From Hyphomonas johnsonii MHS-2 (GTDB lineage: Bacteria > Pseudomonadota > Alphaproteobacteria > Caulobacterales > Hyphomonadaceae), in assembly GCF_000685275.1 (NCBI RefSeq), contig NZ_ARYK01000001.1, positions 868,001 through 932,000 of the forward strand: a stretch of DNA of 64,000 nt, given 5' to 3'. Made by a program: the position numbers and the translations under genes. The notes below the pieces were generated by a model. That model saw only the letters and a list, made by a program, of their open reading frames with translations. It searched no databases and had not been told where the DNA came from. Positions 34,135 through 54,687 of the stretch are shown here, piece by piece (positions within the stretch are counted from its first letter, which is position 1; each line of letters begins with the position of its first letter).

Positions 34135-34162
34135 TCAGCCAACACGTGACAAACTGAACAAG

Positions 34163-36806: not shown

Positions 36807-36809
36807 GCG

Positions 36810-37688: not shown

Positions 37689-38034
37689 CCCGAACGGGTT
37701 TCAATATTGCGGCGCTGAGTCGGTCTTGAGGTGCGTCGGCACGGAGTGCGCCGCAGGGAATGCGTCGGTCCCACACATTCCTCTCAAGCAAGTCTCAGGC
37801 CAAATAGCAAGCCGCCTCACCTGTGCCGCCCACGTATCGCCCAGGGGGCATGGGCGGAGGGAGGCAAGTCCGCGCCGTGATGGTAATCGAACCTGTCAGA
37901 ATGGAAGACTGTCGCGGTTCCGAAGACTTCCGACAGCTGGTATGGCCTTTGCAATCGTATCGGTGTTTACGTAAGTGTTCCAAGGTCGCACGCTGGTATT
38001 GTCGTTCGCACCTTTGGGAGAGGTGGCTCATAAA
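37689..38034. other. Divergent control region between exporter and biosynthesis operons
   Basis: No supported gene is seen in these 346 bases. The region separates the Wzm/Wzt operon from the operon starting at 38035, so it likely holds promoters for both. GGGAGAGG near 38015 is the ribosome binding site for the downstream gene. No clear operator repeat was found. Confidence 0.45.
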
Positions 38035-39240: not shown

Positions 39241-39245
39241 ATCAG

Positions 39246-40502
39246 ATGAAATCGAATAAGACGAGAGTCCTTGTCATCACGGGCGTGTTTCCACCCATGG
39301 CGATTGCTGAAGGCGACCATATTGCCCGTCTCAGCGAGGGGCTGGCTGAGCGCGGTTACGAGGTTGATGTACTGGCAGGCAAGGGCGCCAACGGTGCCAG
39401 CGTGAAGGGATGCCGTGTGCATCCCGTCATGGCGAACTGGAACTGGTCTTCGCAGGCGAAGATCCTGCGCTTCGCAGAAGACATGAAGCCGGACATCATC
39501 TTCTTCTGGTTTATCGGCATGGCTTTCGAATTCCATCCGATGATCTCGCACGTGGCGACGCGGTTGAAGGCGGTGCTGCCGCAGACCCGGATCGTTACGC
39601 AGATTACCGCACCGGTGGGCGTGCGCCCGAAGGAGCATCCATTCCTCACGCGCGCCGGCCTGAAACTTTCCGCGGTCAAGCTCGGCGGCGGAAACATCAG
39701 TTATGAATATGGTACACTGCTGCGCGACAGCGACCGTATAATCGCCATGGCTGAACCTCATCTCCAGCGCTTCGCCGAACAGATGCCAGGCCTTGAATCC
39801 AAGGCCGTCGTCATTCCGCCGCCGCCGCTCATTCCGATGAGCGCGCCGGGGGAAACCTCGCGCATGAAGGGGCGGGAGATGCTGGGTGTTCCAGCTGAAG
39901 CGCCGCTGTTTGCCTATTTTGGCCGCCTGTATGTGGGCAAGGGGCTGGAGTATCTGATTCAGGCTTTCAGCAAGGTACGCAAACAGGTGCCGGATGCGCG
40001 GCTCGCGATTATCGGTGGAGCCGCCCCCGACTATTTCAAATCAGGCTGGAGTGTCGACGCACTGCATGAACTCGCCCGCGAAGAAGGTGTGGCAGATGCG
40101 ATCAGCTGGACTGGAGAATTTCCGTTCGAGACGGATGACGGCTCGCTGTATCTGCGCGCGGCCGACTATGCTGTCTTGCCGTTCACGGAAGGTGCAGCGT
40201 TGAACAACAGTTCCATTGCCGCCTGTGCGGCCCACGATTTGCCTGTCATCACGACTACGGGCGATCGCCGCGAGCCTGAATTCATGGATGGACAAAACGT
40301 ACTGCTCTGCCAGCCGAAGGACGCAGACGCGCTTGCGGACGGCATGCTGCGCGTTCTGAGCGACAAGGATCTCACGAGCCGCCTCAAGGCAGGCTCCGCC
40401 GACCTTACGGGGCGTTACTTCAGCTGGAAGGCGACGCTGGACAGTACGGTCAAGGTGTTCGAGGACGCACTTCAGGGTGCCGCAGCGCGGGAAACGGCAT
40501 GA
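39246..40502 (+). CDS. Glycosyltransferase family 4
   Basis: A 418-residue GT-B glycosyltransferase. It has ITGVFPPMAIAEGDHIARLSE-type N-terminal loop, FAYFGRLYVGKGLEYLIQAF as the donor-domain start, and DYAVLPFTEGAALNNSSIAA in place of the usual EX7E segment. The replacement of the first glutamate block is a mild oddity. It shares its last four bases with the start of the fused nucleotidyltransferase gene. The donor sugar is unknown, perhaps a heptose given the neighbours. Confidence 0.86.
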   Translation: MKSNKTRVLVITGVFPPMAIAEGDHIARLSEGLAERGYEVDVLAGKGANGASVKGCRVHPVMANWNWSSQAKILRFAEDMKPDIIFFWFIGMAFEFHPMISHVATRLKAVLPQTRIVTQITAPVGVRPKEHPFLTRAGLKLSAVKLGGGNISYEYGTLLRDSDRIIAMAEPHLQRFAEQMPGLESKAVVIPPPPLIPMSAPGETSRMKGREMLGVPAEAPLFAYFGRLYVGKGLEYLIQAFSKVRKQVPDARLAIIGGAAPDYFKSGWSVDALHELAREEGVADAISWTGEFPFETDDGSLYLRAADYAVLPFTEGAALNNSSIAACAAHDLPVITTTGDRREPEFMDGQNVLLCQPKDADALADGMLRVLSDKDLTSRLKAGSADLTGRYFSWKATLDSTVKVFEDALQGAAARETA

Positions 40503-41725
40503 CCCGTGTAAAGCAAGCCCTGTTCCTGGTTGGTGGGAGGGGAACACGGCTCGGTGCCTTGTCGGCGAATACGCCGAAACCGATGCAGGAAATTGCACCC
40601 GGCGTGCGCTTCCTGGATATCCTGCTGGAAAACGCCGCGCGGATGGGCTTCTCGGACATTGTCCTGCTTGCCGGGCATCTGGGAGAACAGGTTGAGAGCG
40701 CGTACAATGGCCGGACCATTGGCGAAGCAACAATCCGGGTTGTTCGTGAAAGCGAACCCATGGGTACGGGTGGCGCGTTGGCCCAGGCTGCTCATGTGCT
40801 GGACGAGACGTTCGTGCTGCTGAATGGAGATTCATTCTTCGACATCAATCTGCGTGCGCTGACCGCCGCGCCGCTGCCAGCGGGCGGGGGGCGGCTTGCC
40901 CTTCGCATGGTGGACGACACATCCCGTTACGGTTCCGTGAAACTGGACGGCATGAACGTTGCCGCCTTTATCGAAAAGAACCCGGATGTTTCTGGTCCGG
41001 GCCTCATCAATGGCGGCATCTACTATCTGGGGCGCGATCTCGTGGACCGCATTGCGGCACCTTCCTCGATCGAAACCGACGTGTTTCCGGACCTGGTGCG
41101 CGAGGGGCGCCTGGAGGGGGTGCCTTTCGATGGCTACTTCCTGGATATCGGCCTGCCTGAAACGCTGGCGCAGGCGCAGCGTGAGACAGCGGCCCTCCGG
41201 ATGCGTCCAGCGGCTTTTCTTGATCGGGATGGCGTGCTCAACGAGGACAGGGGCTATACGCACCGCGTCGCCGATCTTGCCTGGATGCCGGGCGCGAAAT
41301 CAGCGATCCGCTTGTTGAACGACCGCGGTTACAGGGTGATTGTCGTGACCAACCAGGCTGGTGTCGCGCGCGGCTATTATGATGAACCTGCGGTGTTGGA
41401 CTTTCATGCCGCCATGCAGGAACAACTGGCGCCCGATGGCGCCTACATCGATGCGTTCTATCATTGCCCGTATCATGCAGACGGTTGCGTGCCTGCGTTC
41501 ACAGTTGATAATCACCCGGACAGGAAACCCAATCCGGGCATGCTTTTGCAGGCCATGACAGATTGGTCGGTCGACAAGGCCGGTAGTTTTCTGATCGGAG
41601 ATAGTACCACCGACATCGAGGCGGCAACCCGGGCAGGGATTCCAGGACACCTTTTTGAATCGGGCGAGCTTGATGTAATCGTGTCAGGAATAATCGACCA
41701 CCCTTCAGACAAGCCTGCGGATTGA
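40499..41725 (+). CDS. Fused sugar nucleotidyltransferase (HddC-like) and GmhB-like HAD phosphatase
   Basis: A 408-residue two-domain enzyme. Residues 1-235 form a nucleotidyltransferase with GGRGTRLG at 12-19, the TPKPM segment and NGDSFFD. Residues about 238-400 form a HAD phosphatase with the nucleophile motif FLDRDGVLN (D242, D244) and GDSTTDIEAA. In GDP-heptose synthesis GmhB removes the 7-phosphate and HddC adds GMP, so the fusion joins successive steps. GmhB's zinc-binding second cysteine pair is absent (HPDRKPNPG replaces CDCRKP), although CPYH and GCVP remain. It overlaps the upstream gene by four bases. Confidence 0.9.
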   Translation: MTRVKQALFLVGGRGTRLGALSANTPKPMQEIAPGVRFLDILLENAARMGFSDIVLLAGHLGEQVESAYNGRTIGEATIRVVRESEPMGTGGALAQAAHVLDETFVLLNGDSFFDINLRALTAAPLPAGGGRLALRMVDDTSRYGSVKLDGMNVAAFIEKNPDVSGPGLINGGIYYLGRDLVDRIAAPSSIETDVFPDLVREGRLEGVPFDGYFLDIGLPETLAQAQRETAALRMRPAAFLDRDGVLNEDRGYTHRVADLAWMPGAKSAIRLLNDRGYRVIVVTNQAGVARGYYDEPAVLDFHAAMQEQLAPDGAYIDAFYHCPYHADGCVPAFTVDNHPDRKPNPGMLLQAMTDWSVDKAGSFLIGDSTTDIEAATRAGIPGHLFESGELDVIVSGIIDHPSDKPAD

Positions 41726-41742
41726 TTGCGGGAGGAAGCAAA

Positions 41743-42882
41743 ATGCATCGGGCCATTCCGTTTGACGAAATTCACCGCTGGATGTTCGATACCGCTCTCC
41801 CGCTTTGGGCCGATGTCGGGTTCGACGGTCAAACCGGAACGTTTGCCGAGAAGCTCGCCTTCTCCGGCAAGCCGATCGACACGGGCTTCCACCGAACACG
41901 TGTGACCGGACGCCAGACGTACGTCTTCGCCCATGCTGCTTTGATGGGCTGGGAGCGTGGCCAGGACCTGGCCGCCGCGGGCGCCAGGAAACTGAACGCC
42001 ATTTACCAGGGGCCGGAACACGGCTGGCCGCGTACGACAAATACAGCTGGCGACGTGATAGATGGTACACCCGATCTCTATGATCTCGCCTTCACACTGT
42101 TCGGATTTGCCTGGCACTATCGGGCGTCCCAAGATCCAGAGTCGTTGGCGTCAGCGCATCGTGCGCTGGATTTCATTGAATTGCACATGCGCGCACCGGT
42201 CGGCTTCTGGCATGAACTGCCGCCCAGCGGTTGGCGACTGCAAAACCCCCACATGCATCTGCTTGAGGCATCGCTCGTTGCGTTTGAAGCAAGTGGCGAT
42301 GAACGGTTCCTCAAAACAGCGAAACAGATTGTAACCCTGTTTCGTGCCCATCTTTTCGACGGCCGCACGCTCGCCGAGTATTTTGACGCTGACTGGAATC
42401 GCGCACCCGGTGACGAAGGGCAGCTGGCGGAACCCGGGCACCAGCTGGAATGGGCCTGGATTCTCATTCAGTACGGACGTCTTGCGGGAGAGGACACCTT
42501 GGCGCTCGCCGAAGCGCTTGTCGGCTTTGCTGAGGCCCATGGCTTCGATGATCGCACGGGACGCGTCCTGCAAGTCGTGCGTTCCGACGGGACGATCGTC
42601 GATGGCGGGTCGCGAACCTGGCCGAACACCGAACGGATAAAGGGGCACCTCGCCCTGTTTGAAGCGACAGGCAGGGATCCGCGACAGGCGGTCGCGACGA
42701 GCGCGCGCGTTCTGCTGGATACATATCTTGCGACCGAGGTTCCCGGCCTGTGGATCGACAGGTTCAATGCTGACGGCTTGCCGGAAGCGAGTGATGCGCC
42801 AGCGTCGACGCTCTACCATGTTTTTCTGGCCTTCGCCGAAATCCTGAGGTTGCGCGACGCAATCGAGGCGATTGCTGACTAA
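41743..42882 (+). CDS. AGE-family sugar epimerase/isomerase
   Basis: A 379-residue alpha6/alpha6-barrel protein of the N-acylglucosamine 2-epimerase / mannose isomerase superfamily. It shows TRVTGRQTYVFAHAAL, NPHMHLLEASLVAFEAS and EPGHQLEWAWIL, which hold the catalytic histidines. Related enzymes interconvert mannose and fructose or GlcNAc and ManNAc, sometimes as phosphates. I start at 41743, which has GGGAGGAA upstream. It closes the operon and is followed by a strong hairpin. It could supply the mannose branch that feeds the GDP-sugar enzymes, which is inference. Confidence 0.85.
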   Translation: MHRAIPFDEIHRWMFDTALPLWADVGFDGQTGTFAEKLAFSGKPIDTGFHRTRVTGRQTYVFAHAALMGWERGQDLAAAGARKLNAIYQGPEHGWPRTTNTAGDVIDGTPDLYDLAFTLFGFAWHYRASQDPESLASAHRALDFIELHMRAPVGFWHELPPSGWRLQNPHMHLLEASLVAFEASGDERFLKTAKQIVTLFRAHLFDGRTLAEYFDADWNRAPGDEGQLAEPGHQLEWAWILIQYGRLAGEDTLALAEALVGFAEAHGFDDRTGRVLQVVRSDGTIVDGGSRTWPNTERIKGHLALFEATGRDPRQAVATSARVLLDTYLATEVPGLWIDRFNADGLPEASDAPASTLYHVFLAFAEILRLRDAIEAIAD

Positions 42883-42993
42883 GCCCGGCAGGGCGTGAAG
42901 CACGCCGGCTGAGCGTGGCAAGCCGTCTGTATTTCTGAAATAAATTCATACCCGCTGCCGCGGTGCCTGCCGTCGCAGTTCATTTCGCTTGCC

Positions 42994-43023
42994 CCGGGAG
43001 CGCCAGCACTCTGGCGCTCCCGG
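42994..43023. terminator. Perfect 13-bp hairpin between convergent genes
   Basis: CCGGGAGCGCCAG and its exact complement close a CACT loop. It lies between the AGE-family gene and the converging acyltransferase gene. There is no T run on either side, so it may be a weak terminator or an RNA-stabilising structure. Confidence 0.45.
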
Positions 43024-43068
43024 AATGGTGCGTGACCTGGTCAACAAAAGCCGACGCGTAAAGCGTTG

Positions 43069-45894
43069 CTATTGCTCAGGCGCAGGTTCGTCAGTGCCTT
43101 CGGGGGCATCAGAACTTGCGGAAAGCCCCATGTTGATGCGTCCGTTCAGGTCGAGCTCCTTCAAGCCCTTGCTGATGGCGTCTGCGATGAGCCTGTGGCC
43201 AGCCTCGTTCGGATGGGTGTCGAAGCGTGAGATGCGGTAATCATCCCGGTTGGGCAGGCCATCGAACAGGTTTGCCAGATTGATGGTTTCGAAACCCGCA
43301 TCCCTGGCATATTGCTCCAGGACCGGCGGCGGCGCTTCGTGTTCGCGGATATCATCGTCCACGCTCGGGACGTAGATCCATACACCGCGAATACCGTCAG
43401 CCTCTAGGTCTTTACCGAGCATCTTGTAGACGTTCTGGACAAACTCGAGCCGATAGGGTGCCAGTCGGCGGGAGATTTCTGTATCAGTCATCGAGCTGTT
43501 GAGACCCGCCCGAGCATTGATGTCGTCAAGGAACGGCCAGGGCATCGGGACGCCTTGTCGAATCATGCGGGCATGGTGATCGAAGATGGAATCCCTGATT
43601 CCCGCGACAAAGAAGACAATGTCAGGACGGAACTTGCGGACCTTCGATTCATATTCCATCACACGTTGGGCCGCGACTTGGCCATCGAACGAGAAGTTCA
43701 TCATCTCGTATTTTGCGTTAGGGCGAGCCGACTCGTTTTCGAAGTCCTGACGCAGCAGGGATGTAAAGCGCTTGTCACGTTCCACCCCGCGTCCACGGGT
43801 CCGGGATGCGCCGAGGATGGCGACGCGATAGGCGCCTTCTGGCTTCGTCAACGGATAGTCGTAGTCATCCATGCCCCACTGGTTGGTGGGCGTGGTGACT
43901 CCGGCAGCCGAATACGTAGCGTTCGGAACATATTCGCGTTCCATGTAGGAATCGACGAAGTGGACGCCTTCGTAATCTTCCTGCATCTTGTGCGCCTGAC
44001 CGGGGTTCTGCATGAAGAATTCCCAGAGTTCGCCATTGAACCGTTGGCTGGAAATCAGGCCTTCATAATAGCCACGCTCCAGCATGATCTGGTCCTGCGC
44101 ATTCAGCTTCGATGCACCGATATCTTCTGCCAGCTGCCGGGCACCGATGGTGTCGTGCACCTTGGGATTCTGTAGGGCGACAAGGCCGACGGCGATCGCG
44201 CCACAGAGAACGATTGCGCCATAGAAATCCTTTTTCTTCTTGGCGAGGTTGCGTTTGACGCGCGGAGCCGGCTTCGCCAGGCCGAAATGGATGCCCAACG
44301 TGATCACGCAGAGAAGGATGCCGATCGCAGCGGAGGCGAGCGTGACGCCCCAGTCGGCCGGGGTTGCGGCACTAATATCCGTGAATGCCGGGGCAAGACC
44401 CGCCCGGGCGACCATGTCCACCCAGTCATGCGCCGTCGGACTCGTCCAGAACGACCACAGGATACAGATGAACAGGAAGGTTGAGACCGTGCGGATCACC
44501 AGCGTCACCTTCGGTGGAATGAAGGCGATCGGCGATGGCTGCTTGCTCTTGGGACGGGCCTCAAGCCAGGTTTGCCCGATCAGCAACGCGCCAAGGATCA
44601 ACCAGAACAGCACGTCCGGGAGGGTTAAGAGGACCGTACCGGTCAACCAGTACCATTGATAGGCATGCAGTGCCCATGTCGCTATGAACACCGTCGCGAT
44701 CGCCAGCATGACGCCGGTCATGTGAGGCACGCCCATCTTCTTGAACACCATGTAGGATGGGTTGAAGACCATCTTCTGCATGAAGTCTTTCCAGTAGATG
44801 TTGATACGGCGCCAGAAGTCGATGAAGCTGGTCGAGAAGTAGAAGCGCGAGTGCGTTTCAGGCAGATTGTAGCCGAACAGAACGATCAGGCCGACGATCA
44901 GGTGGAAGAGGCCCGAAACCTTGAGGTAGAGGCCGAAATTCGAAACCACGTATTGCAGGAAACCAAGTGCGCTGGTGACCTCATTCATGCCGAGGACGTA
45001 CTCGACGTGGATCAGTCGATAGAGCAGCAGGTGGACGAAGCCGCGCAGGATATAGGTGGCACCGTGACGGTAAATGCGGGTCGCTTCATCATTATAATAG
45101 GTGCGCCCATAGGTGGAGTAATCCACAGCGGGAAAGAACGGGAACACGATGTTCGGGAACAGGAAGAAATAGCTCAACCGGTCCCAGATGTTCTTCGGCC
45201 CTTTGCCGTTGGAAATGTCGTAAAGATAGATCGCCAGGCGGAACATGAATATCGCAGCGAGAACCGGCAAGATGGCCATCACCCAGCCGGTATAGACGAA
45301 GCCGGATCGGAACGCAGCAAGGCCTGCCGTGCAGGCGAGCAGCAGCGCGAGCCGAATCCAGATCGAGACGGGCAGGTGGCATATGCCGATCAGCACGAGG
45401 CTGGCGCCGATCAGGCCGACCGCAGCGGGGATGCTGACAACACCGAATACGCCGATGATGGCGACGAGGCCGAGGCCGAGGAAGAATGGGCGGCGCAGGC
45501 TGGTCGGCAGATAATGGTTGATGATGAAGCCGGACAAGGTGAGCGGCGCAATGAACTTGTAGAAGGCCGTGCTCTCGATCTCGTAGATACGGATCGCCCA
45601 GGTGGTGATGCCGACCAGAAGAACAACTGACCAGAAGCGCATGGTTTCGGCGAAGGTCCGTTGCCCGCTGGCGATTTCCCAAAGGATGCCAAGACCCATG
45701 ACGCCGCCGAATCCGGCGACGATCAATTTCCCCTGCAGCGAGAAGTTCTCGGCCGCAGACAAGTGGTTTTCTGCGAACACCGCAAAGATCGCGATCGCGG
45801 CGATAATGATCAGGACGGAAGGGCCCCATTTGTTTGGAACCGAACGCTCGGCCGTTTCTACGGAATCCGAACTTGATTGTGTCGAGACTTCCAT
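43069..45894 (-). CDS. MBOAT O-acyltransferase fused to an SGNH/AlgX-like domain
   Basis: A 941-residue protein. Residues about 25-590 form a polytopic MBOAT domain with TSFIDFWRRINIYWKDFM and the invariant histidine at H410 (ALHAYQWYW). After a last membrane helix (IVLCGAIAVGLVAL), residues about 620-915 make a periplasmic SGNH domain with serine S697 in LGASRTRG and D892/H894 in DTHPNEAGH. MBOATs of AlgI, PatA and DltB type move acyl groups across the membrane, and the SGNH partner (AlgJ/X, PatB, DltD) completes transfer to the glycan. Here both are one chain. The upstream carrier-protein gene is on the same strand. Confidence 0.9.
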   Translation of the reverse strand: MEVSTQSSSDSVETAERSVPNKWGPSVLIIIAAIAIFAVFAENHLSAAENFSLQGKLIVAGFGGVMGLGILWEIASGQRTFAETMRFWSVVLLVGITTWAIRIYEIESTAFYKFIAPLTLSGFIINHYLPTSLRRPFFLGLGLVAIIGVFGVVSIPAAVGLIGASLVLIGICHLPVSIWIRLALLLACTAGLAAFRSGFVYTGWVMAILPVLAAIFMFRLAIYLYDISNGKGPKNIWDRLSYFFLFPNIVFPFFPAVDYSTYGRTYYNDEATRIYRHGATYILRGFVHLLLYRLIHVEYVLGMNEVTSALGFLQYVVSNFGLYLKVSGLFHLIVGLIVLFGYNLPETHSRFYFSTSFIDFWRRINIYWKDFMQKMVFNPSYMVFKKMGVPHMTGVMLAIATVFIATWALHAYQWYWLTGTVLLTLPDVLFWLILGALLIGQTWLEARPKSKQPSPIAFIPPKVTLVIRTVSTFLFICILWSFWTSPTAHDWVDMVARAGLAPAFTDISAATPADWGVTLASAAIGILLCVITLGIHFGLAKPAPRVKRNLAKKKKDFYGAIVLCGAIAVGLVALQNPKVHDTIGARQLAEDIGASKLNAQDQIMLERGYYEGLISSQRFNGELWEFFMQNPGQAHKMQEDYEGVHFVDSYMEREYVPNATYSAAGVTTPTNQWGMDDYDYPLTKPEGAYRVAILGASRTRGRGVERDKRFTSLLRQDFENESARPNAKYEMMNFSFDGQVAAQRVMEYESKVRKFRPDIVFFVAGIRDSIFDHHARMIRQGVPMPWPFLDDINARAGLNSSMTDTEISRRLAPYRLEFVQNVYKMLGKDLEADGIRGVWIYVPSVDDDIREHEAPPPVLEQYARDAGFETINLANLFDGLPNRDDYRISRFDTHPNEAGHRLIADAISKGLKELDLNGRINMGLSASSDAPEGTDEPAPEQ

Positions 45895-46132
45895 CTCTCT
45901 CCCCTTAGGCTACTGTACTGGGCTCCCGACCCCCGGAGCATGTGGCTGGCAACAAAGCAAGTTCCTTGCCGACCGCGGCCCAGCATATGCGACATCCGGT
46001 TGATGGAATGCAATGTTTGATCCCAAATATTAATGCTTCGCCTTAAGCGAAGACATCTGCAGGCGAATTTTCGAGTGCTTGGCTAATTTGAGATGAAGCA
46101 GGGCTTTCCGGGATGAAGCAATTTTGTGATTA
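45895..46132. other. AT-rich region upstream of the acyltransferase gene
   Basis: No gene is seen in this AT-rich stretch. It contains an imperfect inverted repeat near 46035-46052 (CTTCGC...GCGAAG). It likely holds the promoter of the acyltransferase gene. Confidence 0.4.
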
Positions 46133-46173
46133 AAAATGCGGCCTTCATCGGAAATTCCGTGAAGGCCGCATTT
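46133..46173 (-). terminator. Rho-independent terminator after the carrier-protein gene
   Basis: A 12- to 14-pair stem (ATGCGGCCTTCA with its complement) encloses a second small palindrome (CGGAAATTCCG). Read on the minus strand it ends in TTTTTAA. It lies 42 bases beyond the stop codon of the acyl carrier protein gene. Confidence 0.85.
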
Positions 46174-46214
46174 GTCGACTACGAATCGGACCTGAGCAGG
46201 CCCTTGTCGGTCAG

Positions 46215-46469
46215 TCAGCCACCCTTGGCGACGACCATCTGGGCGATCAGCTCGAGCGTGTCGAGGTGCTCAACGTCCACTTCATGCGCATCGACCGATA
46301 TTCCGAAAGTCTCTTCCAGGAAGGCGACGAGCTTGAGGCTGCCCAGCGAGTCCAGCACACCATCTGTCACCAGAAGCGTGTCGTCCGTTAGGCTTTCAGG
46401 ATCTTCTCCTGGCAGGAACTGCGCGACGATAAAGTCCCGAACCGCTTCCTTGATCTTATTCTTGTCCAC
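46215..46469 (-). CDS. Acyl/peptidyl carrier protein
   Basis: An 84-residue carrier protein. The phosphopantetheine site is S41 in GVLDSLGSL, and the helices around it (FLEETFGISVDAHEVDVEHL) are standard. It is acidic, as usual. Being next to a stand-alone adenylating enzyme and a flavin dehydrogenase, it is most likely the dedicated carrier of their substrate rather than the fatty-acid ACP. Its start lies 213 bases from the start of the adenylating enzyme, in the opposite direction. A strong terminator separates it from the acyltransferase gene. Confidence 0.93.
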   Translation of the reverse strand: MDKNKIKEAVRDFIVAQFLPGEDPESLTDDTLLVTDGVLDSLGSLKLVAFLEETFGISVDAHEVDVEHLDTLELIAQMVVAKGG

Positions 46470-46682
46470 TATTTTCTCCTATGATAGGCGCGCAATGTGC
46501 CGGATTGACCCGAACGTGTAACATGGTGACGTCCGCAGGCAACAACGGGGCCAATCTGCCCTGTGCGAACTTGCCGGGGTGGGAGTAGACCAGCAACGAG
46601 GCTTGCCTGTGGCGCCTCGGGAGTGCTGGTACGATTCATGCTTTAGGATAGGTTTCGAATATACGGTAGAGTGGGGACAATC

Positions 46683-48212
46683 ATGCGTCTGGAAGAACTT
46701 GTGTCAAATTCGGCCCGCCGGACACCCGGGGCCGTCGCAGCAATATCTTCGGCGGGGCAAACCATTACCTATGCGGGATTGGACGATCACTCTGATCGTG
46801 TGAGCGCGGCGTTGCGGGCCTTGAATGTACAAGCCGGCGACCGGGTGGGCCTGTGCCTCCGTAAAACGATCAATGCGCTGGGCGCGGTGTTCGGAGTCCT
46901 GAAGGCAGGGGCTGCTTACGTTCCGGTGGACTACAGTGCGCCTGCCGAACGGAATGGCTATATTTTTTCCAATTGCGCGGCAATGGCGATCATTGTCGAA
47001 CGCGCGGTCGCGGATGAATTGCAGGCGAAGCTTGAAGGTGGTCCCTGGGCCATGCATGAGTTTCCCATGGCGGGCGAAGAGCCGGTGGACTTTGTTGTCC
47101 TGGCCCGTGACCGGGCGCCTGAAGACCAATCCGGGCTTGTCGAAGGCCTTGCCTACATCCTCTACACATCCGGTTCGACAGGGCAGCCGAAAGGCGTGAT
47201 GCATTCGCACAAAACCGCACTCGCTTTTGTGGATTGGGTCTCGGACGAGTTTCAGCCGGTCGCGAGCGATCGATTCAGCTCCCACGCTCCGTTCCATTTC
47301 GACCTGTCAATCCTGGACATCTATGTCCCGCTGAAGCATGGCGCCTCCGTCGTGCTCATCAACTCGGAAACCGGCAAGCAACCTGCGCGCCTGCCGGAGC
47401 TGATAGAAAAGCATCGGATCACGATCTGGTATTCGACGCCGTCAATACTTCGTCTGATCGTTGACTTTGGCAAACCCGAGACGCGGGATTGCTCATCGCT
47501 ACGCATCGTGAATTTCGCAGGCGAGGTTTTTCCGACCAAACATCTGCGCGGATTGATGGGGATCTGGCCCAAGCCGGTCTATTACAACCTCTACGGCCCG
47601 ACCGAGACAAACGTCTGCACCTTTTTCAAGGTCCCAAGCCAGATACCGGATGACGCCGATTACGTGTTGCCCATCGGCAAGGCTTGCTCAGGGGACACGC
47701 TCCTCGTTGCCGAGCCGGACAACACGCCTGTCTCGCCAGGGTCACAAGGTGAGTTGCTGGTAAGCGGCAGTTCGGTGATGTTGAACTACTGGAAACTGCC
47801 GGAGCACAATTCAGCGGCCTTCACGGACGTGGACGGCATTAAGTGGTATCGCACCGGCGACATCGTGATGGAACTGGCATCCGGCGACATCAAGTTCGTC
47901 GGGCGGCGCGACCGCATGGTGAAGCGCCGCGGGTTCCGGGTTGAACTCGGCGAAATTGAAGCAGCGCTACACAAGCATCCTTCCATTCCCGAAGCGGCCG
48001 TTCTGGCTGCCGACATGGGGGAAGCCGGGCTCGAGATCCGCGCTTACTATGTTTGGTCGGATGAAGCCCCGCCATCGCTCCTCAAACTGAAAAAGTTCTG
48101 TTCGCAGAACCTGCCTTACTACATGGCGCCAGACAAATTCGTCTGCCTGCCCGAACTACCCAAGACGTCGACCGACAAGGTCGACTATCAGCGTTTAAAG
48201 GAAATTGCATAA
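46683..48212 (+). CDS. Stand-alone amino-acid adenylating enzyme, predicted for proline
   Basis: A 509-residue AMP-forming ligase like NRPS A-domains and DltA. ATP motif YTSGSTGQPKG, YGPTE, YRTGD and the catalytic lysine K499 (TDKVD) are intact. The ten-residue-code positions read D207, L208, L211, Y250, N277, A279, L303, V311 and C312; eight match the code I recall for the proline enzymes of pyrrole biosynthesis (PltF, RedM type), the exception being N277. I predict it loads proline, or a related amino acid, onto the neighbouring carrier protein. The ATG at 46683 is chosen with GGGGA upstream. It overlaps the next gene by one base. Confidence 0.87.
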   Translation: MRLEELVSNSARRTPGAVAAISSAGQTITYAGLDDHSDRVSAALRALNVQAGDRVGLCLRKTINALGAVFGVLKAGAAYVPVDYSAPAERNGYIFSNCAAMAIIVERAVADELQAKLEGGPWAMHEFPMAGEEPVDFVVLARDRAPEDQSGLVEGLAYILYTSGSTGQPKGVMHSHKTALAFVDWVSDEFQPVASDRFSSHAPFHFDLSILDIYVPLKHGASVVLINSETGKQPARLPELIEKHRITIWYSTPSILRLIVDFGKPETRDCSSLRIVNFAGEVFPTKHLRGLMGIWPKPVYYNLYGPTETNVCTFFKVPSQIPDDADYVLPIGKACSGDTLLVAEPDNTPVSPGSQGELLVSGSSVMLNYWKLPEHNSAAFTDVDGIKWYRTGDIVMELASGDIKFVGRRDRMVKRRGFRVELGEIEAALHKHPSIPEAAVLAADMGEAGLEIRAYYVWSDEAPPSLLKLKKFCSQNLPYYMAPDKFVCLPELPKTSTDKVDYQRLKEIA

Positions 48213-49369
48213 TGGACTTCAGCTTCAATGCCGACCAGCGCGCATTGCGCGATCAGATCATCAAGTTTGCGCGAAAGGAATTGAATCATGACGTCGTGGA
48301 ACGTGACGCGGCGAAGACGTTCCCACGTGATCTCTGGCTGAAGTGCGGGGATATGGGCCTGCAAGGCCTCACTGTACCTGAAGAATTCGGCGGCGCGAAT
48401 CTCGACTCCCTGACGACGGCAATTGCGATTGAGGCGTTGGGCTACGGATGCGAAGACTCCGGTCTCGTATTCGCAGTCTGTGCGCACCTGCTGGCATGTG
48501 TGACTCCCATCTGGAAGTACGGGACGCAGGAGCAGAAGGAGCGTTACCTGCCGGATCTTTGCAGCGGTCGCCGTATCGCGGTGAACGCGATGACCGAACC
48601 GGAAAGCGGCTCGGACGCTTTCAATATGCGCACCCGTGCCCGGCGAGACGGCGATGATTACATCATCAACGGCGTCAAGACTTTCAGCTCGAATGGTCCG
48701 ATCGCAGATGTCGCCGTCGTCTATGCCCGTACCGACGACACAAAGGGATATCTCGGCGGCATCACAGGTTTCCTCGTCGACAAAGGCACGCCGGGTTTCA
48801 TGCCGGGACAGGCCTTCGACAAGTCTGCCCTTCGCACTTGCCCAATCGGAGAGCTGGTGTTCGAGGACGTCAGAGTGCCGGAGAGCGCCATAATCGGGAA
48901 GGTGGGCGCGGGTGGACCCATCTTCAATCAATCGATGGAATGGGAGCGGACATGCCTCGTCGCGGCGCATCTTGGCAAGATGGAGCGCCTTCTTGAGAAG
49001 TCGATCGACTATGCCAAGACGCGCTCTTCCTTCGGTAAACTGATCGGCCAGAACCAGGCAGTGTCACACAGGATCGTGGACATGAAGGTGCGCCTGGAAG
49101 CGGCTCGCCTGTTGACCTACCGGGCCGCCATGCGCCTTGAGACATCGAAGGCTGTGGGCCTCGATGCATCCATGGCCAAGCTCTTCACGAGCGAAGCCCT
49201 GTTGGAAACGGCCATTGATACTGTGCGGGTTCTGGGCGGCTACGGCCTGATGACCGAGTATGGTGCTGAACGGGCGCTACGGGATGCAATGGCTGGTACC
49301 ATCTATTCCGGCACCAACGACATGCAGCGCAACATCATTGCCGGCTGGCTCGGCCTGTCCAGCATGTAG
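48212..49369 (+). CDS. Acyl-CoA-dehydrogenase-like flavoprotein, predicted prolyl-carrier oxidase
   Basis: A 385-residue FAD-dependent dehydrogenase of the acyl-CoA dehydrogenase fold: AMTEPESGSDAF, FGKLIGQNQAV, GGYGLMTEYG. The usual catalytic glutamate in the C-terminal IYEGT motif is a serine here (S366 in IYSGT). A glutamate is instead found at E245 in MEWER, the position used by isovaleryl-CoA dehydrogenase. Oxidases of prolyl-carrier thioesters in pyrrole pathways (PltE, RedW type) belong to this family. Translational coupling (one-base overlap) to the adenylating enzyme supports that job. A fatty acyl substrate is the alternative. Confidence 0.9.
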   Translation: MDFSFNADQRALRDQIIKFARKELNHDVVERDAAKTFPRDLWLKCGDMGLQGLTVPEEFGGANLDSLTTAIAIEALGYGCEDSGLVFAVCAHLLACVTPIWKYGTQEQKERYLPDLCSGRRIAVNAMTEPESGSDAFNMRTRARRDGDDYIINGVKTFSSNGPIADVAVVYARTDDTKGYLGGITGFLVDKGTPGFMPGQAFDKSALRTCPIGELVFEDVRVPESAIIGKVGAGGPIFNQSMEWERTCLVAAHLGKMERLLEKSIDYAKTRSSFGKLIGQNQAVSHRIVDMKVRLEAARLLTYRAAMRLETSKAVGLDASMAKLFTSEALLETAIDTVRVLGGYGLMTEYGAERALRDAMAGTIYSGTNDMQRNIIAGWLGLSSM

Positions 49370-49440
49370 CGCGCGCCCCCTCGTTACCGGTTCCGGCCAG
49401 ACGGTCGTGAACCGGTGCGATCGGGATGGCTCATGCGAGC

Positions 49441-50487
49441 CTAGACTTTACGACTGTCCCAATTGGCCGTCTGGGCGGCCTGCTGGTTGCCCAGACGCGT
49501 TCCCATCGCCTTGATCGCGGGAAGCAATGCAATAGTGGCCAGGCTCTGGACCTTGTGGCTGTGCCCGATCAGCGGCAGCTTTCGAACCAGAGGGCGCACG
49601 ACCCCGTCGCGGTAACGCCAGGTCATCAGCTTCTCATATTTCTTGAAGTATGGATCGGACTCCAGCCCCCATTTCGTCCGGAAATGGTCGAGGCTTTTGC
49701 GCTGCCACGCTGGCGACCAGCGAAGAATGAACAGCTTGCGATCCATGGGCTCCACAGGGTGTGTGCGATCTGGATGGCAGAATGTGACAATGGACGAAGG
49801 CTCGAGCATGATGCGGCCGCCGTTTGCCCAGACCGTGACGCTGAAATCCACATGGTCCTTGGAGCACGGCATGTTCTCGTCGAAGTCGCCGAAGCGTTCG
49901 AATACGTCACGCCGAACGAGAATGCAGTGGACCTCGCAGACCTGGGTTTCGGTGCGCGACAATTCCACTTCGTCGACTCGTTTACCCTGATGGTTCAGGT
50001 GCTTGTCGGTGAGGCGGTGAGCTTCGGCCGGACCATTGAAGAAAGCATCGAGGTCGTCCGTAAAGTTCCCGCCAGCCTGGTGAATTTCGGTGTGGAGTGG
50101 AACGCCCTGGCAAAGCAGTGGCTGGACGACCTCAGCACCCGTCTCATCCGCACATTTAATGAGGGCTTCCAGCCAGCCTTCCGACGCCATCACGTCATTT
50201 TCAATGAAAGCGACATACTTAGTCTGCGCGAGATGGTGTCCCCGGTTGCGTGATTGGCAAGGGCTGAGGAAGTGCTCGAACCGCTCGTAACGAAAGCTGT
50301 TTTCCGCGCAGATGCGTTCCAATTCGGATGCGACTCTGGTCGGGCTGCCCGCGTCGATATAGATCAGTTCGAAAGGCGGCTTCGTGACAGCGACAAGATT
50401 TTCCAGCGCCCGCACCGCCAGGCTGAAACGGTCGCGGGCAGTCACGATGATGGTGACATTGGGCTGGCTCGGTGTTGAATCGGTCAT
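49441..50487 (-). CDS. Glycosyltransferase family 2
   Basis: A 348-residue GT-A inverting glycosyltransferase: TIIVTARDRFSLAVRALENL at the start, IYIDAGSP, and FIENDVMAS with the END variant of the DXD motif. The C-terminal part is basic with amphipathic helices. Its start overlaps the stop of the upstream GT4 gene by four bases. It converges with the dehydrogenase gene. It resembles transferases that act on lipid-linked sugars; the donor is unknown. Confidence 0.85.
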   Translation of the reverse strand: MTDSTPSQPNVTIIVTARDRFSLAVRALENLVAVTKPPFELIYIDAGSPTRVASELERICAENSFRYERFEHFLSPCQSRNRGHHLAQTKYVAFIENDVMASEGWLEALIKCADETGAEVVQPLLCQGVPLHTEIHQAGGNFTDDLDAFFNGPAEAHRLTDKHLNHQGKRVDEVELSRTETQVCEVHCILVRRDVFERFGDFDENMPCSKDHVDFSVTVWANGGRIMLEPSSIVTFCHPDRTHPVEPMDRKLFILRWSPAWQRKSLDHFRTKWGLESDPYFKKYEKLMTWRYRDGVVRPLVRKLPLIGHSHKVQSLATIALLPAIKAMGTRLGNQQAAQTANWDSRKV

Positions 50488-51773
50488 GTTGCGATCATCC
50501 TCAAGGCGTTGTTGTTAACAGGTTCGGCGTTGTCGTTGGCGCGCGCCAGGCATTTCTCATAGTGGCTGACAAGCTTGTCGGTACACTTGTCGAGGCCGTA
50601 CATGTCTTCGACCTTGCGCCGGGCACGCTTGACGATTGCCGGCCAGGCTGACGGGGCAGCGGTCAGGCGCTCGATTGCGGCACACAGGCTTGAGACGTCG
50701 GCCTCATCGGCCATCGCCCCGGTCTCTCCCTCGATGACGAGTTCCGGGATGCCACCATGGTACGTCGCGATGACGGGGCGTCCAATTGCCATGGCTTCCT
50801 TGAGCGTATTGACGGGTGCGTCCTGGCCGCCTGTTGCGCTCGTCATGGAGGGTGCAAGGAAGACGTCTGTGCGCCGGATGAAATCTGCGATTTCGGAGTG
50901 TGTGCGGGCGCCGTGAAACCTGACGGATTGGCCAAGCCCGAGCGCGTGTGCGAGGGCTTCCAGTTCCGCACGCATGGCGCCGTCCCCTACGATGTCGACG
51001 TGTATGCGCGCCGACGACTGCGCCGAGAAGCTGGCGAGTGCGCGCAGGGCTACATGAAAGCCTTTCCGTTCAATCAGACGTCCGACCATGAGAAATCGCA
51101 ATGCGTTCCCGGCAGGTGGCGACGCAGGCTCAAACGGGAAATTCTCCAACCGGATTCCGGAACCGATCACTTCGATACGGTCACTCGGGCATCCGATCGC
51201 CACAGCACGGTCTTTGAAATAGTCACAGTTGGCGATGAAGCTCGCCGCTTCGTCCCAGACGTGGTCATAGACCTGCGGGCCTACTGCATCGACGGTTTCC
51301 GTAATGTCATAGCCCCGGAAATTGACGACGATGTTTCCCGACAGGAATCCCGCCTTTCGATGCTTGATTACGTCTTCCGCCAATGTCGCAAACTGGCAAT
51401 GGAGGATGTCATAAGCACCCGGCCCCTCGATCGCGCTTGCCTGATAGACTGCAGAAAGGTCGGCGAATGTCCGCCGGTAAATGGCCGGGCGAAGGCGCCG
51501 AAGTGAGGAAAGTCCCCCATTCTTTGATATTTTGCTTAGCGCCGAAGGGAGTTCGGCGAGCCGTCCGGCACGCGAGCGCGGCCAGCGGGCATTAAAGGTG
51601 TGGGCGTCCATTTCATCAATTGCTGCCGCTTCGACGGAGCAGCCCGTCGGCTGAACGTTTCCAAGCCCGAATATGTCGACAGAATGTCCTGCGTCCATCA
51701 ACGCAGCGGCACTGTTGGCGATGAACGCCTCGGACATCATCGGAAAGGCATTGACGAAGAACGCGATTTTCAT
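50484..51773 (-). CDS. Glycosyltransferase family 4
   Basis: A 429-residue GT-B transferase. It has FFVNAFPMMSEAFIANSAA, then FLMVGRLIERKGFHVALRAL and VRFHGARTHSEIADFIRR; the EX7E-type segment is DAPVNTLKEAMAIGRPVIAT. That layout resembles colanic-acid WcaL-type transferases, which work late in repeat-unit assembly. It is coupled to the downstream GT2 gene by a four-base overlap. The divergent gene at 51941 lies 167 bases away. Confidence 0.87.
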   Translation of the reverse strand: MKIAFFVNAFPMMSEAFIANSAAALMDAGHSVDIFGLGNVQPTGCSVEAAAIDEMDAHTFNARWPRSRAGRLAELPSALSKISKNGGLSSLRRLRPAIYRRTFADLSAVYQASAIEGPGAYDILHCQFATLAEDVIKHRKAGFLSGNIVVNFRGYDITETVDAVGPQVYDHVWDEAASFIANCDYFKDRAVAIGCPSDRIEVIGSGIRLENFPFEPASPPAGNALRFLMVGRLIERKGFHVALRALASFSAQSSARIHVDIVGDGAMRAELEALAHALGLGQSVRFHGARTHSEIADFIRRTDVFLAPSMTSATGGQDAPVNTLKEAMAIGRPVIATYHGGIPELVIEGETGAMADEADVSSLCAAIERLTAAPSAWPAIVKRARRKVEDMYGLDKCTDKLVSHYEKCLARANDNAEPVNNNALRMIAT

Positions 51774-51940
51774 TTTCGACCGGCGCTGTGTTTAATGAGA
51801 GGTTTATATCGTTGCATAATGTTCTGGATCCCGACTTGGCGCGCTAATTGCTTCTGTCAGACAGAGCAATTCTGGTGCCATGCTCCGGCGCGGCGATCTG
51901 GCCGAATCGGCACTGACAGACTGAAACATCAGGGGGACGC

Positions 51941-53149
51941 ATGCCAAATAACGACGTGACTGTCCTGATTCCGACCTTTAACCGATCGGCATTGCTCGTC
52001 GAGAGCCTTGAGTCCGTGCTCGCACAGACCCGGCCAGCACATGAAATCATCGTTATAAATGACGGCTCCACCGACGACACGCTTGACGTTTTGAAGCCCT
52101 ATCAGGGGAAGATCCGCGTTATTTCTAAGTCAAATGGTGGCAAGGCATCGGCCTTGAACCTTGGCATGCGACACGTGAGCGGTGGCCTGGTCTGGATATT
52201 CGATGATGATGATATTGCTTCGCCGAACGCCCTTGAGGTTCTAGTTGGCATGCTTGAGGCGAAACCAGGCGCGGATTTGGCCTATGGAAGACATGATCGC
52301 TTCAGAATAGACGGTTTCGGAAGGACTCGCAGTTTCGGGACCGGCTACTGGCGGACCTGCGGATCCGACGAATTCCTGGCAGAAACACTGGACGACATGT
52401 TTGCGCACCAACAGGGCATGATCGCCCGCAAGGAACTCTATGACCGGGTCGGAGCGTTCAACGAGGAGCTCATCAGGTCGCAGGACTATGACATGTTGAT
52501 CCGTCTTGCCCGGGTGGCCACAACGGTGGCGACCAACGAGGTCGTGTTCCACCAGCGGCTTCACGATGGTATCCGAGGAACAGATTCAAAACCCGTTCCA
52601 GCCTCCAGCCGGGATTCGGCCTGGTCCAGTTTTGACAAGATCATTTTTCAGAAATGCTACCCGCAACTAAGGCTGCACGAGTACCTCAAGAAGGGGCGTT
52701 CGGACATGAATCCCGTCATGCACCGGCAGGCTCTGCTTCGCCGAGCGTCGGTCATGGCACGCAAGAAGCTTTGGAATCTGACACTGGCAGATCTGCGTTC
52801 GGCCGTCGCAACCAGTCAGGAACCATTGACGAAGGCAGAAATTGCCATACTCCGCGGCGCTTTCTCCTCAAAATACGGGTGCGAAGAAATCCTTCGGGAT
52901 CCGAAGCTCATTGATGAACTCTGCAAGTTGGCGGCGACGTCGCCCGCAGCGGCGGAAGTCGTCGCCCCGTTGGCACGCGGCCTGAGATGGAAAGTGCGAT
53001 CCGAGCTATTTGGAATGAAAATTTGGCGATCCGTCAGCTATTTCCTGATAATGAACAAATTGCGGAAGGCCGCCTCGAAGGCTTCCCGTGATTTCAACCC
53101 TGAGCCTGCCTCACTGGGGCGGTCCATTCGACGATTTGGGTCCTTGTAA
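51941..53149 (+). CDS. Glycosyltransferase family 2
   Basis: A 402-residue protein. The GT-A domain at residues 1-235 has TVLIPTFNRSALLVESLESV, VINDGSTDDT and FDDDD as metal-binding site. The C-terminal 170 residues are helical and basic and do not match a family I know; they may bind the membrane or a partner. The stop overlaps the flippase start by one base (TAATG). Confidence 0.86.
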   Translation: MPNNDVTVLIPTFNRSALLVESLESVLAQTRPAHEIIVINDGSTDDTLDVLKPYQGKIRVISKSNGGKASALNLGMRHVSGGLVWIFDDDDIASPNALEVLVGMLEAKPGADLAYGRHDRFRIDGFGRTRSFGTGYWRTCGSDEFLAETLDDMFAHQQGMIARKELYDRVGAFNEELIRSQDYDMLIRLARVATTVATNEVVFHQRLHDGIRGTDSKPVPASSRDSAWSSFDKIIFQKCYPQLRLHEYLKKGRSDMNPVMHRQALLRRASVMARKKLWNLTLADLRSAVATSQEPLTKAEIAILRGAFSSKYGCEEILRDPKLIDELCKLAATSPAAAEVVAPLARGLRWKVRSELFGMKIWRSVSYFLIMNKLRKAASKASRDFNPEPASLGRSIRRFGSL

Positions 53150-54687
53150 TGTCACAATCCTTGCTTCGACGCGCTGGCAAAGCCGTCATCCTCAACGCTC
53201 TGGGTAACTGGATCGGATTGATCGGTGGCATGCTGTCGCTCGTATTCATTGCTCGAATCCTGTCGCCGATGGATTTTGGCATCTACGGCATGACGCTGGT
53301 CGTATTTGCGATTCCGGAGATTTTCGCCTCGGACAGCCTGAATGACTCGCTCATCCAGCGCCCGGACCTGCGAGACGGGCACGTCAACTCGATTTTCATC
53401 CAATCCCTGGTTCTCGCCTTCATTTTCTGGGGCGGTGTCAATCTGCTTGCGCCACTCATTGCCCAAGGGTTCGATGAGCCGGCGCTGGCGCCGATGATCC
53501 GGATGTTTTCCATTGTCCTCTTCCTCGGTGCGCTGACTTCGGTTCCCTCCGCACTTCTGCAGCGAGATCTCCGCTATCGAGAGATCACCATCGTGGACGT
53601 TATCGGCACGATATCTGCGGCCGTGATCGGTGTGACCCTCGCAATATTGTTGAAAAGCGCCTGGGCACTGGTCTTCATGGAAATATCGCGCCGGGTCATT
53701 CGCCTGGTCGCTTTTGCGATACTCGCCAGGTGGCGGCCTTCGTTTCAATCGACCTGGGTCGAGACACGCGAATTGACCCAGTTCAATTCCAGGAACGTTC
53801 TTTCCAAACTCGTACTTGCGGTGGACCAGGCACTGCCGCGGGTATTCATCGGTGGTGCATTGGGGCCGGCTGCTTTGGGTATGTACAACATGTCGGTGCG
53901 GATGCTGGACCAGGCACGCGCCGCGCTTGTCACGCCGTTCGCCGCCGTCTCGCTGCCGGTTGCATCGCAAGCCCAGAACGACTTGCCAACGCTGCATCGT
54001 GCGATGGAGGGCGCAATGCGCCTCGCCGCACTCGTTGTCTATCCGGCATTCATTGGCGCTGCAGTGATCGCGCCGATCGCTGTGCCTTTCGTGTTTGGCG
54101 GGCAGTGGGTACCTGCCGTAACCGTGATCCAGATTTCCCTGCTCAGCGGCATCCGCGCGCCTACGTCAGCCTTCAATACAGGCGTGCTGAACGGTGTGGG
54201 CAGGGTCGACTGGACGCTCAAGATGTTCACCACAGGTCTCGCCCTTTCGGTCGTGTTTGTCCTGGCGACGATCCAGTTCGGCCTTGAGGCTGTTGCTCTG
54301 GCGCTGCTGGTGAAGACATTCCTGATCTGGGCGCTCGGTGCATACGCCGTCAAATCGGTGATCGGATTCCCGATGCACCGCCAAGTCGTTGCAGGTTGGC
54401 AGGCATTGGTCGCATCCTTCGCCATGGGGGCAATTGTATGGCTCTGCATGCATCAGCTGCCAGTGGCGATGGAGCCGCTGGTCAAGTTGGCGATTCTGGT
54501 TCCCCTCGGGGCGCTGGCCTATATCGGCATTCTGGCAATCCTGATGCCGAGGTTGGCCCTGCGTGCCGTTCAGGCATCGACGATGATCGTGCAGGGGCGC
54601 AGGCAGGAAGCCATCAGTCTGGTGAAGAGTGCGGTCTATGCAGGCTCGCAACCGCCTGTTGCTGCAAGCAACGCGGCTACGCCCTGA
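53149..54687 (+). CDS. Wzx-type oligosaccharide flippase
   Basis: A 512-residue polytopic membrane protein of the MOP superfamily with about 12-14 helices, such as LIGGMLSLVFIARILSPMDF and SALLQRDLRYREITIVDV. Wzx proteins flip undecaprenyl-linked repeat units to the periplasm. Normally a Wzy polymerase would then act; none is seen in the window. The coexistence with a Wzm/Wzt exporter suggests two glycans, or one glycan made in parts. Its 3' end overlaps a converging glycosyltransferase gene by 52 bases. Confidence 0.9.
   Translation: MSQSLLRRAGKAVILNALGNWIGLIGGMLSLVFIARILSPMDFGIYGMTLVVFAIPEIFASDSLNDSLIQRPDLRDGHVNSIFIQSLVLAFIFWGGVNLLAPLIAQGFDEPALAPMIRMFSIVLFLGALTSVPSALLQRDLRYREITIVDVIGTISAAVIGVTLAILLKSAWALVFMEISRRVIRLVAFAILARWRPSFQSTWVETRELTQFNSRNVLSKLVLAVDQALPRVFIGGALGPAALGMYNMSVRMLDQARAALVTPFAAVSLPVASQAQNDLPTLHRAMEGAMRLAALVVYPAFIGAAVIAPIAVPFVFGGQWVPAVTVIQISLLSGIRAPTSAFNTGVLNGVGRVDWTLKMFTTGLALSVVFVLATIQFGLEAVALALLVKTFLIWALGAYAVKSVIGFPMHRQVVAGWQALVASFAMGAIVWLCMHQLPVAMEPLVKLAILVPLGALAYIGILAILMPRLALRAVQASTMIVQGRRQEAISLVKSAVYAGSQPPVAASNAATP

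Follow-up and report, generated by a model that had tools for sequence, protein, structure and literature searches.

A proline-fed, Dlt-like gene cassette of Hyphomonas johnsonii predicted to acylate an exported polymer with pyrrole-2-carboxyl groups

What might enzymes of the kind that turn proline into pyrrole do inside a polysaccharide locus? In Hyphomonas johnsonii MHS-2, a window of 64,000 nucleotides (the whole stretch of DNA analysed; contig NZ_ARYK01000001.1, positions 868,001 to 932,000) carries adjoining genes for an MBOAT-SGNH acyltransferase, a carrier protein, an adenylating enzyme and a flavoenzyme resembling acyl-CoA dehydrogenases. A sequence-only reading had placed the four inside a glycan locus, and their coordinates and content are confirmed here; it had gone on to propose that they merge pyrrole chemistry with transfer of the Dlt kind. 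Our analysis favours the view, with a probability of about two in three, that they form a proline-fed, Dlt-like acylation machine, by which a pyrrole-2-carboxyl group would be esterified to an exported polymer. The set is built as two divergent pairs, acyltransferase and carrier facing one way, adenylase and oxidase the other, with the following features:

43069..45894, minus strand: fused MBOAT-SGNH acyltransferase, 941 aa (open reading frame (ORF), profile match, AlphaFold2 model, alignment of relatives)
44416..45570, minus strand: MBOAT domain, residues 109-493 (DltB the best solved match)
44665..44667, minus strand: His410, putative MBOAT catalytic histidine (codon checked; alignment)
44065..44070, minus strand: Tyr609-Tyr610 of the linker (GYYExL), proposed acyl shuttle (position from the alignment; putative role)
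43159..44043, minus strand: SGNH domain, residues 618-912
46215..46469, minus strand: acyl/aminoacyl carrier protein, 84 aa (Pfam PP-binding above cut-off)
46347..46349, minus strand: carrier Ser41, phosphopantetheine attachment site (D-S-L in the window; codon checked)
46470..46682, no strand: intergenic region separating the divergent pairs (from gene coordinates; presumed promoter region)
46683..48212, plus strand: stand-alone adenylating enzyme, predicted to act on L-proline (frame open from a GTG at 46671)
48212..49369, plus strand: predicted prolyl-carrier dehydrogenase/oxidase with the acyl-CoA dehydrogenase fold (PDB and NCBIfam matches)
48944..48946, plus strand: oxidase Glu245, catalytic base position (alignment with PDB 6af6)

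The neighbourhood, whose recurrence in other genomes the sequence-only reading had left to a search, is conserved far past this strain. An oxidase search of named prokaryote genomes gave 279 confirmed relatives, and among the best 80, each taken as a locus, 25 hold all four genes, usually in the order MBOAT-SGNH, carrier, adenylase, oxidase. These 25 include three with an acyltransferase cut by the contig end, one in which its halves are separate (L118, from an uncultured planctomycete) and one in which the pairs lie a few genes apart (L065); two further sets are completed elsewhere in the genome, on another contig (L053) or about 14 kb off (L063). Full sets come from seven named phyla (Pseudomonadota, Gemmatimonadota, Rhodothermota, Calditrichota, Bacteroidota, Acidobacteriota and Planctomycetota); many of the source genomes are metagenome-assembled genomes (MAGs), so individual phylum labels may be wrong. 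Carriers of the cassette known by name are Aromatoleum anaerobium LuFRes1, Pseudothauera rhizosphaerae CC-YHH848, Methylomonas sp. SURF-2 and Microvirga sp. VF16.

Closer to home the cassette is rare. Another genome of the genus (G018, a single contig) has the four genes in the order and orientation of the window, with identities of 49, 83, 74 and 85%, and the carrier occurs in two of the 42 genomes of the genus. At 1e-60 the acyltransferase was found only in the window's genome and G018 in a phylum sample of 398, while a class sample of 385 gave the oxidase at 1e-95 in three genomes, H. johnsonii included; the other two copies adjoin ORFs resembling nonribosomal peptide synthetases (NRPS), with no acyltransferase nearby. 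The cassette is accessory and has probably moved horizontally.

What would such a machine be fed with? The sequence-only reading named proline, and the adenylase is indeed predicted to take L-proline, not D-alanine or a fatty acid. The window protein passes the NCBIfam model for amino acid adenylation domains (350.9 bits, cut-off 317.4) and falls far below both DltA models, with 275.4 bits for a cut-off of 476 and 264.8 bits for one of 559.85. Searched against the PDB, it matches the L-proline--[L-prolyl-carrier protein] ligase 6o6e with 312.9 bits (E 2.9e-92). Six rows score higher, all of them NRPS chains of several domains in which two stretches are matched, and the rows below stay at or under 240.6 bits. 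The adenylase of a Rhodothermales MAG behaves likewise (341.9 bits for 6o6e, 233.3 for the next row with a single adenylation domain). The substrate pocket points the same way. Pocket positions were placed in the adenylase alignment from GrsA landmarks. For L-proline domains that stand alone, PMC3874040 gives the code L(L/F)YLALVC flanked by invariant D and K. The window enzyme reads DLLYNALVCK, agreeing at nine of ten positions, and the cassette family as a whole reads DL(L/F)YLALVCK. The consensus is exact in 22 of 31 adenylases (window included) and agrees at nine positions at least in all 31; seven found later score ten of ten (six) or nine (one), so that all 38 adenylases examined carry the code at nine or ten positions. 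On DltA scores and pocket code together, a D-alanine or fatty-acid adenylase was rejected.

The product of this step would be received by the small carrier, whose Ser41 is invariant in 31 of 31 sequences; two matches to the phosphopantetheinyl transferase family occur in the H. johnsonii genome. Against the DltC model the carrier scores 31.6 bits. Among NCBIfam models it scores best against the OlsH/OlsI-associated carrier, with 108.9 bits for a cut-off of 130; PMC12493201 describes a GH3-like enzyme and an alpha/beta-hydrolase. Neither type is found among the four cassette genes; a role in ornithine lipid synthesis was accordingly rejected, and the match is taken as carrier similarity only.

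The flavoenzyme had been assigned to the pyrrole-pathway type, and this assignment is supported: its best PDB matches are prolyl-carrier dehydrogenases. First stands 4irn, a prolyl-ACP dehydrogenase (1.6e-109, 369.6 bits), followed by the L-prolyl-[peptidyl-carrier protein] dehydrogenase 5zw0 (2.1e-103, 349.5 bits), with its variant 6af6 also matched, and by 6cxt (1.3e-91), which the PDB labels butyryl-CoA dehydrogenase. PMC10849742 identifies 6cxt as the pyrrole-forming Bmp3, ascribes to RedW, PltE and Bmp3 a four-electron oxidation to pyrrole, and lists AnaB with enzymes whose glutamate is essential for pyrrole formation. Glu245 of the window oxidase aligns with the glutamate that is replaced by alanine in 6af6; 30 of 30 cassette oxidases, the window's among them, retain it, as do seven of seven further ones. 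The enzyme is thus a predicted prolyl-carrier oxidase, for which we infer a four-electron outcome. In two relatives electron transfer flavoprotein genes adjoin the oxidase (L044 2628-3377, by Pfam; L065 12836-14568, by cluster membership), which suggests an electron acceptor in these loci.

Several relatives carry a further gene that bears on the product. A halogenase of the FADH2-dependent type lies directly after the oxidase in L043 (Calditrichia), L046 (Rhodothermaceae) and L052, L053 and L063 (Bacteroidetes), and one gene further from it in L059 (Planctomycetota); in L060 a weaker match lies upstream. The cassette halogenase profile detected the gene in seven of 27 cassettes and not in the remaining 20; it also found one after the oxidase of L066 (Chloroflexi), where no acyltransferase was found, and, outside the L065 locus but near it, a weaker match (L163). 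A halogenase is present as well in four of the seven cassettes recovered by an acyltransferase search of the G801 class (see below), twice in one of them. PDB matches of these proteins include 8zop, CmlS (3i3l), 3e1t, 5buk, PltA (5dbj) and 5bva. Enzymes like PltA and Mpy16 halogenate pyrrole while it is bound to a carrier; CmlS and 3e1t we take to lie outside pyrrole pathways. The presence of the gene in relatives favours a pyrrole product and does not prove it. In L059 the gene between oxidase and halogenase (5967-7019) looks by eye like an O-methyltransferase. The H. johnsonii genome itself has two strong matches to the tryptophan-halogenase family (C2:203734-205083 and C4:243636-244985) and a weak one; all are on other contigs, the cassette halogenase profile finds none in the window, and they were rejected as partners of the cassette.

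How would the acyl group leave the carrier? The Pfam MBOAT model did not match the 941-residue protein of the window, and profile and fold comparison were therefore used instead. By profile it is an MBOAT family protein (probability 96.8), and its AlphaFold2 model comprises a DltB-like half, with DltB as the closest MBOAT fold, and an SGNH half, bearing out the earlier assignment of a Dlt-like MBOAT with an SGNH partner. The relatives were aligned from 21 of the 24 loci listed with MBOAT-SGNH (L034, L040 and L118, the last with two ORFs, were left out; the cut copies of L042, L048 and L068 lie outside the list). In a further comparison of relatives, His410 is present in 39 of 39 covering rows, Tyr609 in 39 of 39 and Tyr610 in 40 of 40, and all three in 12 of 12 later rows; Ser697 and His894 of the SGNH half occur in all covering rows, and Asp892 in 38 of 39 and in 10 of the 12 later ones. 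MBOAT and SGNH are fused in the window protein and its 21 aligned relatives, and are separate ORFs in L118. PMC12148441 describes FXYXXF as a shuttle motif. Of this motif the linker consensus GYYExL shares only the third-position tyrosine and, at position 6, a hydrophobic residue, so the motif as such is absent; the Tyr609-Tyr610 pair may stand in for the microprotein DltX.

The genes around the cassette give the likely destination:

28458..55655, no strand: surrounding glycan locus (sugar-nucleotide enzymes, exporter, glycosyltransferases, flippase); context, outside the cassette

This locus holds a Wzt-like ABC transporter with its permease, a Wzx-type flippase, several glycosyltransferases, a pyruvyl transferase and sugar-nucleotide genes. 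Putting the parts together, the adenylase would activate L-proline and load it onto the phosphopantetheine of the carrier, as its pocket code predicts. By homology, the flavoenzyme, with Glu245 as base, would oxidize the bound prolyl group to pyrrole-2-carboxyl by removal of four electrons, and in some relatives the ring would then probably be halogenated. By analogy with PatA and DltX, the MBOAT half may use His410 to carry the acyl group across the membrane onto a tyrosine of the Tyr609-Tyr610 pair, from which the SGNH half, through Ser697, would pass it to an extracytoplasmic hydroxyl. In the window that hydroxyl most likely belongs to a sugar of the exported glycan made by the locus, to judge from gene context.

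Two genes of the locus are of interest in their own right. One (40499-41725) encodes a fusion of sugar nucleotidyltransferase and HAD phosphatase, which scores 114.8 bits as HddC-like and 137.2 bits as GmhB-like; the other (31664-32701) encodes an HddA-related GHMP kinase, at 131.1 bits. All three scores lie below the cut-offs; together the two genes suggest a branch resembling GDP-D-glycero-D-manno-heptose synthesis.

Does the acyltransferase belong to the set when the oxidase is not the bait? A search that starts from the acyltransferase is free of the bias that an oxidase query brings; in these whole-genome searches only the first few candidates were scored per genome. Among 150 genomes of the Aromatoleum family (L069, G802) eight have the acyltransferase, with carrier and adenylase directly adjacent in all eight, the fetched loci stopping within the adenylase. 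Half of the eight were known from the oxidase search (L069, L054, L071, L076) and four are new; L145, L148 and L149, 100% identical to L076, L071 and L054, were not counted as new. The G801 class (345 genomes) yielded 12 genomes, 10 of them besides the two seeds, and carrier, adenylase and oxidase are adjacent in seven of these 10 and not in three. Three genomes of the G793 phylum (345 genomes) have the acyltransferase, two of them new; G1325 has a lone copy, and G1513 a lone copy and one with the carrier only. Altogether, of 16 genomes that the oxidase search had not supplied, 11 have carrier and adenylase alongside.

In a quick tree of 84 oxidases, built with no bootstrap, one clade of 38 rows (support of 100 in the Shimodaira-Hasegawa-like approximate likelihood ratio test, SH-aLRT) takes in 28 of the 30 labelled cassette members, and the other ten members of the clade are contig-cut, partial or without a nearby acyltransferase. 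The two outside it are the oxidases of L118 and of Microvirga (L040), whose other three genes match the set, suggesting that a prolyl oxidase entered the set more than once. The oxidase frame of L076 has only 338 residues, with a second frame adjacent, possibly through a frameshift. Two Gemmatimonadetes MAGs (L045, L061) have adenylase and oxidase, with no carrier or acyltransferase found nearby, and in L045 a thioredoxin/DsbA-like gene lies directly upstream.

Several observations weigh against the proposed machine. The window adenylase and that of G018 carry Asn for Leu at one pocket position. The linker that holds the tyrosine pair (residues 608-640) is modelled with stretches at a predicted local distance difference test (pLDDT) score below 50. 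Five of the 16 newly found acyltransferase genomes lack adjacent carrier and adenylase, and in five of 13 genomes with cassette-clade oxidases, several of them MAGs, no MBOAT-SGNH was found at E 1e-20. Only a minority of the relatives examined have glycan genes in their flanks, and the cassette halogenase profile found no halogenase in the window cassette. Finally, the window oxidase misses the cut-offs of both NCBIfam pyrrole-type models, PigA (458.2 bits, cut-off 500) and RedW (428.2 bits, cut-off 650), which makes it a relative and no formal member of either. These misses leave pyrrole unproven, as does the top match 4irn, presumably AnaB, an enzyme said to give a two-electron product, a pyrroline-carboxyl group.

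Alternatively, the oxidase may stop at two electrons, with a pyrroline-carboxyl group being transferred, or prolyl itself may be passed on, and the missed pyrrole-type models as well as the lead of 4irn over 5zw0 speak for this. By eye the active-site stretches of the window oxidase are nearer to 5zw0 than to 4irn (AHLLACV, against AHLCACV in 5zw0 and AHIWACE in 4irn; GTND, against GTND and GTSE), and pyrrole-type halogenases lie beside the oxidase in several cassettes. We consider a group other than pyrrole unlikely, yet worth keeping in view.

The acyl group might also be made and exported as proposed and then be placed on an acceptor other than a polysaccharide, such as a lipid, a peptidoglycan unit, a secreted protein or a small molecule. 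Many relatives lie outside glycan loci. In a Pfam tally of flanking genes (123 of 129 proteins from 26 loci, the six longest dropped; genes from a simple ORF script, false ORFs among them), the 25 families tabulated of 180 include glycosyltransferase group 1 in four proteins and sulfotransferase in three, and the genes right beside the cassettes encode, among others, an aldehyde dehydrogenase, a poly(A) polymerase-like protein and TatC. One genome (G793, Rhodothermaceae, L044; contigs C388, C193 and C8, loci L137-L139) has five MBOAT-SGNH profile matches, with tandem copies on C388, and several acceptors may thus be served; in its fetched stretches carrier, adenylase and oxidase occur on C8 only. 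In contrast, the copies of the window, G018, Microvirga and Calditrichia stand among glycan genes, those adjoining the G018 cassette being related to the sugar genes of the window and those of the Microvirga plasmid including glycosyltransferases on either side of the four genes, and the characterized MBOAT-SGNH pairs that PMC12148441 names act on envelope polymers. A glycan acceptor is likely in the window, from its context, and possible in the relatives at large; we consider a non-polysaccharide acceptor unlikely.

The flanks hold two further observations. Four loci have genes for sulfate activation (adenosine 5'-phosphosulfate (APS) kinase and GTPase) or for a sulfotransferase immediately upstream of the acyltransferase gene:

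L041, 2-2053: sulfation genes
L069, 3027-5342: sulfation genes
L043, 4471-5382: sulfation genes
L052, 4013-5708: sulfation genes

A gene for proline supply next to the cassette was also considered and rejected: AA_kinase occurs in four of the 123 flank proteins, and a homologous group in L054, L055, L069 and L076 reads by eye as N-acetylglutamate kinase-like.

Could the acyltransferase simply adjoin a pathway for a pyrrole antibiotic or other secondary metabolite by chance? NRPS-sized adenylation ORFs do lie beside oxidases in many of L083-L115 and in G061 (L038) and G242 (L039). No NRPS or polyketide synthase (PKS) protein was found among the scanned neighbours in the window, and chance adjacency fits poorly with an acyltransferase that belongs to the set at 25 of the best 80 oxidase loci, has carrier and adenylase next to it in 11 of 16 new genomes, and travels with oxidases of which 28 of 30 share one well-supported clade; we regard this explanation as very unlikely for the cassette. 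Many of the loci L077-L115, mostly from MAGs of Acidobacteriota and Chloroflexota, have the order oxidase-adenylase-carrier, often with NRPS-sized ORFs, and are possibly undescribed pyrrole secondary-metabolite clusters. Ordinary D-alanylation beside an unrelated dehydrogenase can be set aside as scarcely credible, for although the adenylase and carrier register on the DltA and DltC models and the MBOAT fold is nearest to DltB, the DltA scores fall far short, the pocket code is that of L-proline and the oxidase stays with the other genes from phylum to phylum.

We conclude that the interpretation from which we started is partly supported: predicted chemistry and conservation largely bear it out, the glycan acceptor comes from context, and pyrrole is the favoured product although sequence does not distinguish it cleanly from a two-electron one. 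Of the three outcomes that it had named as refuting it, two were checked, an adenylase for D-alanine or a fatty acid and a neighbourhood confined to this strain, and neither was borne out. Whether the cassette stands for a widespread new class of surface acylation, in which carrier-made pyrrole-2-carboxyl, halogenated in some lineages, is placed on exported glycans by a fused MBOAT-SGNH protein, is in our judgement evenly balanced. The earlier statement that no polysaccharide system of this layout is described agrees with our search, in which open-access full texts, most subscription papers lying outside them, gave no description of the cassette or of pyrrole-carboxyl on a bacterial polysaccharide, a weak indication of novelty. 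To our knowledge, bacterial surface acylations comprise acetyl, D-alanyl, succinyl and similar small groups. If the proposal is right, a surface polymer bearing an aromatic heterocycle, halogenated perhaps, would be new to envelope chemistry, linking thiotemplated natural products with envelope modification; carrier-fed MBOAT-SGNH transfer would extend past Dlt, with a single-chain model for acyl-tyrosine shuttling; and halogenated pyrrole groups would be predicted on the envelopes of some Bacteroidota, Calditrichota, Rhodothermota and Planctomycetota.

Each half of the cassette has its counterpart among known systems. With the thiotemplated pyrrole-2-carboxyl pathways (pyoluteorin, prodigiosin with PigA, Bmp1/3, clorobiocin with CloN3/N4/N5) it shares a stand-alone L-proline adenylase, an adjacent dedicated carrier, a glutamate-bearing oxidase and, in some relatives, a halogenase, while its oxidase stays below the equivalog cut-off. 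The cassette differs in sending its output to a membrane MBOAT-SGNH protein and not to an NRPS, a PKS or a soluble acyltransferase. Clorobiocin offers a precedent for such an ester: there, according to PMC11218499, CloN7 esterifies the carrier-bound pyrrole-2-carboxyl made with CloN3/N4/N5 to a sugar hydroxyl.

AlgI/J/X and WssH/I are, besides PatAB, MBOAT-SGNH systems for polymer O-acetylation. With PatAB the cassette shares the catalytic histidine, two extra helices, a tyrosine motif and the SGNH triad, its own version being the conserved His, the putative Tyr shuttle and the SGNH Ser and His. PatAB-type acetylation uses an acyl-CoA donor and separate proteins, according to PMC12148441, whereas the cassette has fused domains and a conserved adjacent carrier, which argues against acyl-CoA as its donor. 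That source presents MBOAT/SGNH pathways other than Dlt as lacking such a carrier, and AT3-SGNH as the fused bacterial form; the cassette departs from both, having a carrier and a fused form that is MBOAT-SGNH. Like OatA-type AT3-SGNH proteins it joins a membrane acyltransferase to SGNH, but with an MBOAT and not an AT3 fold.

The cassette also resembles the Dlt pathway (DltA, DltB, DltC, DltD, DltX), which D-alanylates teichoic acids. In both, a stand-alone adenylase loads a small carrier through a phosphopantetheine serine, an MBOAT of the DltB fold with its catalytic histidine follows, and an SGNH domain completes the transfer outside. In place of a D-alanine-specific DltA the cassette has an adenylase with an L-proline code, and in place of the separate DltD an SGNH domain fused to the MBOAT; it adds an oxidase and, in some relatives, a halogenase. 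No DltX was identified in it, small ORFs not having been searched, and an invariant Tyr-Tyr pair occupies the linker instead. The cassette is thus Dlt-like through the SGNH transfer step, yet it is not a Dlt system.

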